Positions 25,420 to 26,381 of a DNA stretch of 64,000 nucleotides are shown in pieces. Position 1 is the stretch's first letter, and the number at the start of each line of letters is the position of its first letter. The stretch spans positions 78,431,739 to 78,495,738 of the forward strand of contig NC_089583.1 in the NCBI RefSeq assembly GCF_019320115.1. The letters run 5' to 3'. A program made the translations under genes and the position numbers. Under the pieces are notes generated by a model. It was not told where the DNA came from and made no database searches. It saw only the letters and a program-made list of their open reading frames with translations. Source of the stretch: Miscanthus floridulus (Eukaryota > Streptophyta > Magnoliopsida > Poales > Poaceae).

Positions 25420-26381
25420 ATGGTCCGCACAAAGCAGACCGCCCGTAAGTCCACTGGAGGAAGAGCACCCCCAATGTCCGTTGGCCCTGAGGGAGCACCG
25501 CACTACGGACACCTTCTTGAGCGAGTTTGGCATGCCGACTTTGCTTTGGAGAGTGCTCCATGATGTGGGGTACCCAGAGGGTCAAGAGCCGGTGTACTCT
25601 TGGAATGAGAGCCAGTTAGCAGTGGATGGACTCGTAGTAGTGGAGATCACGGTTCCTGCTCTCGATGATGCTCTAGATTGGGATGGTTGGCACATGGAGT
25701 TTGAGGGTCACACTCCAGCTGAGGGTGTAGAGGGAGCAGCCTTCCATGTCATTAGGGACATTATGAGTAGATTTCCTAGTGAGCTTGCAGCAGCTCTAGC
25801 TGGCACTTTGGGTTCAGCCTTAAGGAAGTGCATTGGTCAGAGGTCCAGCTGAAGGATAGGCTAGCGACAACCAGGCAATGAGTGCTATGTTCGCCGCCAT
25901 CAGAGCGTATGAGGGTCTCGAGAGTACCTACTGGACTTTGACTGGCTTGCGTGGTGAGGATAAGCTCAAGGGGAGAAAGCAGAAGAAGAGACAGGCACGT
26001 GCTATAGCTAGCTTGTAGGAGCAGTTGGCTGATATGAACTTATAGTGAGATCAGGCGGTTGAGAGAAGTGATAGAGCTATGCAGCGGGTGCATACGTTGA
26101 CTCAAGCCAACAACAATGCAGACCGCATGATTAGACAGTTGGTTCAGGAAAGGAATGAAGCCTAGAATGCAAGAAGCCTTCTGCTATAGAGGGTTGATGA
26201 GCTAGAGGAATACAACGGCAACCTGCACGAGGAGTTTCACGCGCTCTACAATGGGGTTGGCCCATATGCCCCGCTGAACGCCGCTGGCATGGACATCAAC
26301 GACGACAACCAGGACGAGCCGGTAGTTTCACCTGGGGGCGATGGTGACGTCTCCGATCCCGACGATGGCCCCAAGGAGTAG
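25420..26381 (+). pseudogene. A accessory ORF: histone H3 tail mimic fused to a globular and coiled-coil protein
   Basis: The ATG at 25420 opens a frame reading [18 protein letters not shown]. Against the histone H3 N-terminus this is identical at H3 residues 2-13 ([12 protein letters not shown]) and again at A15 and P16. The differences are Ala1 to Val, K14 to R and R17 to P. The reading then moves one frame forward near 25477 and continues from 25481 as LALREHRTTDTFL...; LALREHR resembles VALREIR of the H3 alpha-N helix. A region without recognised family follows to about 25830. A second frame change leads to a lysine/arginine-rich linker (KGRKQKKRQAR), a coiled-coil stretch with heptad spacing (about 26010-26240), and an acidic end (DINDDNQDE...DPDDGPKE) at the TAG 26379. 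In the last part, in-frame stops lie at 25857, 26016, 26043, 26046, 26163 and 26187. It precedes gag by 365 bp. Function is unknown. Confidence 0.75.

Follow-up and report, generated by a model that had tools for sequence, protein, structure and literature searches.

Why should an accessory protein of a plant retrotransposon begin like a histone? The question is raised by a stretch of 64,000 nucleotides from the grass Miscanthus floridulus (contig NC_089583.1), hereafter the window, which contains a 14.4 kb Ty3/gypsy long terminal repeat (LTR) element with an additional open reading frame (ORF), ORF0, upstream of gag. As its translation confirms, the start of this accessory ORF is a genuine mimic of the histone H3 tail. 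Our preferred reading, to which we give a probability of about one in two on the strength of the sequence comparisons below, is that the tail was captured from H3, is kept by selection, and may act as a multivalent, methylatable decoy or adaptor for the H3 machinery of the host.

The histone H3 tail at the start of ORF0

The feature in question is the following.

25420..25473, + strand: H3-tail mimic of 18 residues, read from the translated sequence, which opens ORF0

With H3 numbering, which omits the initiator methionine, residues 2-13, A15 and P16 are identical to H3, as an earlier sequence-only reading of this locus had claimed and as translation bears out. The window copy deviates from H3 at residue 1 (V, A in H3) and at position 14 (R, K in H3). 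The valine occurs in 2 of 30 loci of family A, the group of copies to which the window element belongs, the other 28 having alanine. In the intact family A ORF0 with its usual start, 18 of the 21 residues following the methionine are identical to H3, and loci of a further family, D, such as L083, reach 19 of 21. When the whole window is scanned in six frames, the 12/12 match to the 12-residue H3 stretch is unique to position 25420, the second-best place with at least 6 matches being 58360, with 6/12. A search of Protein Data Bank sequences with an intact relative reports 133 distinct sequences, of which the 60 listed are all H3-type chains, one of them named Cse4; the best E-value is 3.1e-5 and, among the matches listed, coverage extends at most over query residues 1-30.

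The same reading held that no histone fold follows the tail, and indeed Pfam reports no match to PF00125 (histone) at E ≤ 10, and the predicted model is devoid of a histone fold. A possible second H3 remnant behind the tail, suspected by eye (RPLALREHR against RPGTVALREIR in H3), was dropped because no Pfam histone domain was found at this threshold and the listed structural matches end by residue 30. The statement that the tail opens the accessory ORF of an LTR element also stands, with the restriction that in the window copy itself the frame opened by the tail stops after 47 codons, the remaining ORF0 being found in other frames, with stops. A protein search with this broken frame (region 1-47) returned P0001 alone out of 23 candidates (E 0.33), a protein whose H3-like stretch is internal, and a scan of viral contigs for relatives returned no confirmed one. 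A genome search with the exact tail gave one match, which is no sign of rarity: an E-value of 0.001 is hardly passable for so short a peptide, and the best 150 of 3666 candidates were scored.

The tail across element families

Family A was assembled with a 261-base query around the tail, which gave 40 matches, all those scored of 1895 candidates; 30 loci were fetched, the window copy included, and since they were chosen by likeness to a query containing the tail, they are biased toward its retention. The tail stands in register at the ORF0 start in 30/30 of them. Seven of the 30 carry an intact ORF0 of 329 residues (L006, L008, L014, L017, L024, L029, L030), that of L022 runs to 318, and the remaining ones are shorter. 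Two further families give less biased samples. Family B was found with protein P0030 (150 matches, all those scored of 9959 candidates), and each of its 30 fetched loci starts with a variant tail such as MARAKMTPRKSTGPKGVPRHQL, one of them with an internal stop; behind the tail, the family B ORF0 is a short, acidic coiled-coil protein. Family D came from a search with P0017, a protein that itself has a decayed tail (ARRRLTAHKSTGG). Its 123 matches, all those scored of 12811 candidates, all contain internal stops, and they begin at query residues 1-4, so that the remnant tail aided their detection. Of these 123, we fetched 20 N-termini, largely from the best-ranked matches and chosen without inspecting their tails. 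All 20 have the tail, or a variant of it, in register (e.g. L083), the Met codon being lost in one and a stop lying inside the tail in two. The tail is thus neither confined to the window copy nor out of frame in the others, the two outcomes that the sequence-only reading had named as fatal to it: pooled over families A, B and D, it or a variant of it is in register in 80/80 sampled copies.

Identity to the reverse transcriptase (RT) of the window element is 77% for one B copy and 78% for one D copy; the gag of two B loci is 38% identical to that of A. The ORF0 of A and that of the D copy L080 share 47% identity, and another D copy compares with A at 78% for RT and 77% for gag; of the stretches fetched for three D copies, one contains gag-pol, and one of the other two is only 1.7 kb long.

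K4, K9 and S10 are invariant among the 80 copies; R2 is found in 74 of them and R8 in 72. Arginine occupies position 14 in 48/50 copies of families A and D, and none of the 50 has K at position 18, so these tails retain essentially two lysines, K4 and K9, which are methylation sites in H3. The exchange at position 14 keeps the charge, as would be expected if the tail were merely a basic peptide for nuclear import or nucleic-acid binding, roles that an H3 tail can itself serve. However, charge alone would not require T3, T6, S10, T11, G12, G13 or the exact position after the methionine, and the family A ORF0 already has another basic stretch, KLKGKKQKKRQAR, further along; we consider this explanation unlikely.

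The claim that the tail is under purifying selection has to be divided. Over the 30 family A loci, the ratio of nonsynonymous to synonymous differences per site (pN/pS) is 0.19 for ORF0, which as a whole is thus under purifying selection; its body gives 0.20, the coiled coil 0.12 and the tail 0.50. For the tail within family A, the claim is not carried: once CpG changes are set aside, the variant types number 2 nonsynonymous against 2 synonymous, which is not enough to decide. The comparison between families does carry it. Between A locus L030 and D copy L080 (the only D copy whose ORF0 was retrieved in full; it has one internal stop), codons 2-14 encode 13/13 identical residues at a synonymous difference (pS) of 0.455 and a pN of 0, whereas identity drops to 54% in the body (pN/pS 0.40) and to 40% in the C-terminal part (pN/pS 0.47). 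None of the 283 overlapping 13-codon windows of the body reaches 13/13, and four, starting at residues 32-35, reach 12. Over codons 2-12, pN/pS is 0.11 for all A-D pairs, 0.31 for A-B pairs and 0.23 for D-B pairs. These sequence comparisons make a clear case that the tail was kept by selection across families as the remaining protein diverged. If instead an H3 exon had been captured once and merely carried along as a neutral relic, the exon-like limits of the tail described below and the lack, among the few non-CpG tail changes within family A, of a constraint of its own would be accounted for; yet 13 identical residues at such a synonymous distance, with the remainder down to 40-54%, and the low ratio over all A-D pairs make this very unlikely.

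The element and the origin of the tail

The features of the element are listed below.

20740..20744 on the left, 35159-35163 on the right, no strand: target-site duplication AACAC, read from the flanks
20745..24631, + strand: 5' LTR, starting TGTAACACCC and ending TTACA, from self-BLAST
24634..24647, + strand: primer-binding-site-like stretch tagtatcagagcat, read from the sequence, presumably of the tRNA-iMet type
25408..25419, + strand: apparent 3' splice site cttttgctatag, immediately 5' of the ORF0 ATG
25420..26381, + strand: ORF0, broken, the frame being lost after the tail, with more stops
26746..27669, + strand: gag, broken, its start MTNTRRTTYEAAEPG preceded immediately by CAG, with a gag domain (Pfam Retrotrans_gag); the listed open frame begins at 26956
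28156..31248, + strand: pol pieces, namely RT, RNase H, integrase and integrase C-terminus, from Pfam
31271..35158, + strand: 3' LTR, from self-BLAST, with a purine-rich stretch immediately upstream

The two LTRs, of ~3.89 kb each, are 96.7% identical (Kimura two-parameter distance 0.034), which gives an insertion age of about 1.3 million years if we assume a rate of 1.3e-8 per site and year. The order ORF0, gag, RT, RNase H and integrase between LTRs longer than 3 kb, flanked by a target-site duplication, agrees with a Tekay/Retrosat2-like Ty3/gypsy element, a provisional assignment based on element structure.

The likeness of ORF0 to H3 ends at codons 22-24. Among the H3 matches in the Miscanthus genome are genes without introns and others whose exons match one by one. 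With exon limits read from sequence and not from transcripts, GT follows codon 24 immediately in 8/8 intron-containing H3 loci and AG directly precedes the ATG in 5/8, while 2/2 intronless loci fetched continue past codon 24. On the ORF0 side, AG lies immediately 5' of the tail ATG in the window, and YAG directly precedes the ORF0 start in 30/30 A and 19/20 D loci and stands one base further away (YAG-T) in 29/30 B loci. Since the limits of the likeness (YAG at the start, codons 22-24 at the end) match those of the first coding exon of H3, the tail was most likely captured as this exon, of 24 codons, from an intron-containing host H3 gene, as far as the sequence can tell. What weighs against such a capture is that CAG or TAG also stands immediately before the start of gag and of two of three ORFs of family C, a tail-less family described below, although none of these has a tail; a splice-like site by itself therefore proves nothing.

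Compared over 66 bases with ten H3 loci, A or D tails have a mean nucleotide identity of 67-79%, the top single pair reaching 83%. Such an identity to host H3 genes is not what a short motif arisen by chance or convergence would give, and neither is a match of 18/21 (typical A) or 19/21 (D loci such as L083) residues that sits precisely at the N-terminus and stops close to the limit of the H3 exon. The four-residue mimic of influenza NS1 demonstrates that short mimics exist without long identity (PMC10612106); even so, an origin of the tail other than H3 appears extremely improbable.

As to gag, its ATG lies directly after YAG in all 27 gag starts recognised among the 30 A loci (26746 in the window). 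The presence of YAG before both ORF0 and gag hints, at the sequence level, at alternative splicing between them.

Elsewhere in the window, direct repeats at 5420-8163 and 13183-15926, 89.5% identical, are probably the LTRs of an older element. On the - strand, 40400-42805 contains copia-like gag ORFs with zinc-knuckle motifs, and 52110-53581 contains ORFs resembling a sugar transporter, both recognised by eye.

The ORF0 protein, its possible role and its relatives

The intact ORF0 protein (329 residues) comprises the tail, a predicted fold resembling a double-stranded RNA-binding domain (dsRBD), the basic stretch, a predicted coiled coil and an acidic end. The α-β-β-β-α order is observed in two AlphaFold2 models, whose alignments share rows, and the nearest known counterparts are dsRBD proteins of the Dicer/DRB kind (TRBP dsRBD3, DCL4 dsRBD2, DRB7.2), although in every fold-comparison list the first ten entries are just 9-20% identical to ORF0. 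In contrast to these proteins, ORF0 returns no match to PF00035 (dsRBD) at E ≤ 10, although HMMER filters drop most weak matches, and it has a coiled coil after the fold; by eye, the usual RNA-binding lysines of dsRBDs are absent in family A. With H3 itself, ORF0 has residues 1-21 in common and nothing of the histone fold or its Pfam signature. A disordered, flexible tail on an oligomeric scaffold is predicted.

A role as decoy or adaptor could arise as follows. ORF0 would probably begin at a 3' splice site, and removal of the methionine, with Ala or Val next to it, should expose the same free N-terminus as in H3. The disordered tail would hang from the dsRBD-like fold and the long coiled coil, which is predicted to oligomerise it, so that ORF0 might present several H3 tails with methylatable K4 and K9. 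These tails might occupy or redirect host H3 writers or readers of the SUVH, CMT or PHD type, and the outcome would be that silencing of the element is blunted, or that a complex of the element is hooked to such factors. It is by H3K9 methylation and small RNAs that plants silence their LTR elements. A more elaborate version, which we put forward as speculative, makes ORF0 a two-pronged anti-silencing protein, in which an oligomeric H3-tail decoy for the H3K9/H3K4 machinery is joined to a dsRBD-like domain of the Dicer/DRB type that possibly engages the small-RNA arm.

The tail might also serve as a tether instead of a decoy: it could dock ORF0 on H3 readers, with gag or integrase in the same complex, or be read by the chromodomain of the element's own integrase, so that the complex is steered to chromatin. 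The integrase C-terminus matches Chromo (PF00385) at E 0.028 and 14.8 bits, below the cut-off of 25.1, and the invariant K9, K4 and S10 of the 80 copies would suit such docking. No partner is known for the type II chromodomains found in plant chromoviruses (PMC6317226), which leaves room for the tail, but they are also devoid of the cage residues, which speaks against it; we regard a tether as possible, though somewhat doubtful. The ORF0 tail is a candidate partner for type II chromodomains, which lack a known ligand, and the selected tail suggests an element that imitates chromatin to deal with the plant silencing machinery, the reading as decoy or adaptor being the one we prefer.

Additional ORFs before gag are known from Retrosat2, RIRE3 and RIRE8 of rice, with LTRs of ~3 kb or more (Gao et al. 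2012, PMC3485330), and Retrosat-2 is a member of the Tekay/Del clade (PMC6317226). The window element resembles them in its extra upstream ORF, its long LTRs and its LTR start, which is TGTCACACCC in those elements and TGTAACACCC here. ORF0 has been described from grasses only and diverges faster than ORF1 (PMC3485330); the same study predicts enzyme-like functions for it, and the word "histone" is absent from its main text. Influenza A NS1, like ORF0, is a non-host protein that imitates the H3 N-terminus including K4 (Marazzi et al. 2012, via PMC10612106), and its ARSK motif can be methylated by lysine methyltransferases and bound by CHD1 (PMC10612106). That mimic comprises four residues at the C-terminus, devoid of a free amine, whereas that of ORF0 comprises ~20 residues at a true N-terminus, includes K9 and probably stems from exon capture. 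No H3 tail in plant LTR elements is mentioned in the portions available of PMC3485330, PMC7264820, PMC6317226 and PMC12786077. A full-text literature search, with subscription papers and supplements outside its reach, likewise found no report of one, in line with the sequence-only reading, which knew of no published description. Histone mimicry and ORF0 are each known; what looks new is that the two come together, probably through the capture of an exon. To our knowledge, the tail would be the longest histone mimic of a mobile element, and we know of no role so far established for ORF0. Its conserved, near-perfect H3 tail offers a concrete and cheap handle for testing that role, and antibodies against the H3 tail may also detect ORF0 proteins.

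A body similar to that of ORF0 also occurs without the tail. A search with P0021 defines family C (122 matches, 123 having been scored of 10925 candidates), at 21-30% identity. These matches start at query residues 21-53, where the tail ends or beyond it, and the ORFs, which are abundant (e.g. L062, L064, L065), align with the dsRBD-like body and the coiled coil. None of the five N-termini fetched has a tail, their starts being MAEEDW, MADEEW or MAGAWV, and two stretches downstream of one copy contain no gag or RT.

Outside the genome, a database search with the intact ORF0 reports 29 proteins, and a search with the first 40 residues of P0021 reports the best 31 of 48 candidates, P0021 included. 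From these, 14 ORF0-like proteins were chosen by eye on their protein sequences, P0002 included; histone-like, fungal or other non-plant-looking, partial or inner-Met and some unclear entries (such as P0028, P0037 and P0043) were left out. Close metagenome matches (such as P0003-P0006) are often inner-Met or partial predictions and are uninformative on the tail. K9 is kept in 14/14 of the chosen proteins and K4 in 12/14, and one of them comes from Aristida adscensionis, a grass of the subfamily Aristidoideae. P0021, P0032 and P0026 share 22-23% overall identity with P0002, yet 11-12 of the first 12 tail residues. Apart from ORF0, a near-perfect H3 tail also opens a set of non-histone proteins, several of them fungal (P0022, P0031, P0041, P0036, P0048, P0040, P0046, P0053, P0029, P0025, P0027, P0050, P0051, P0052). 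They may mean that the H3 start has been captured more than once outside plants, or they may be gene-model artefacts.
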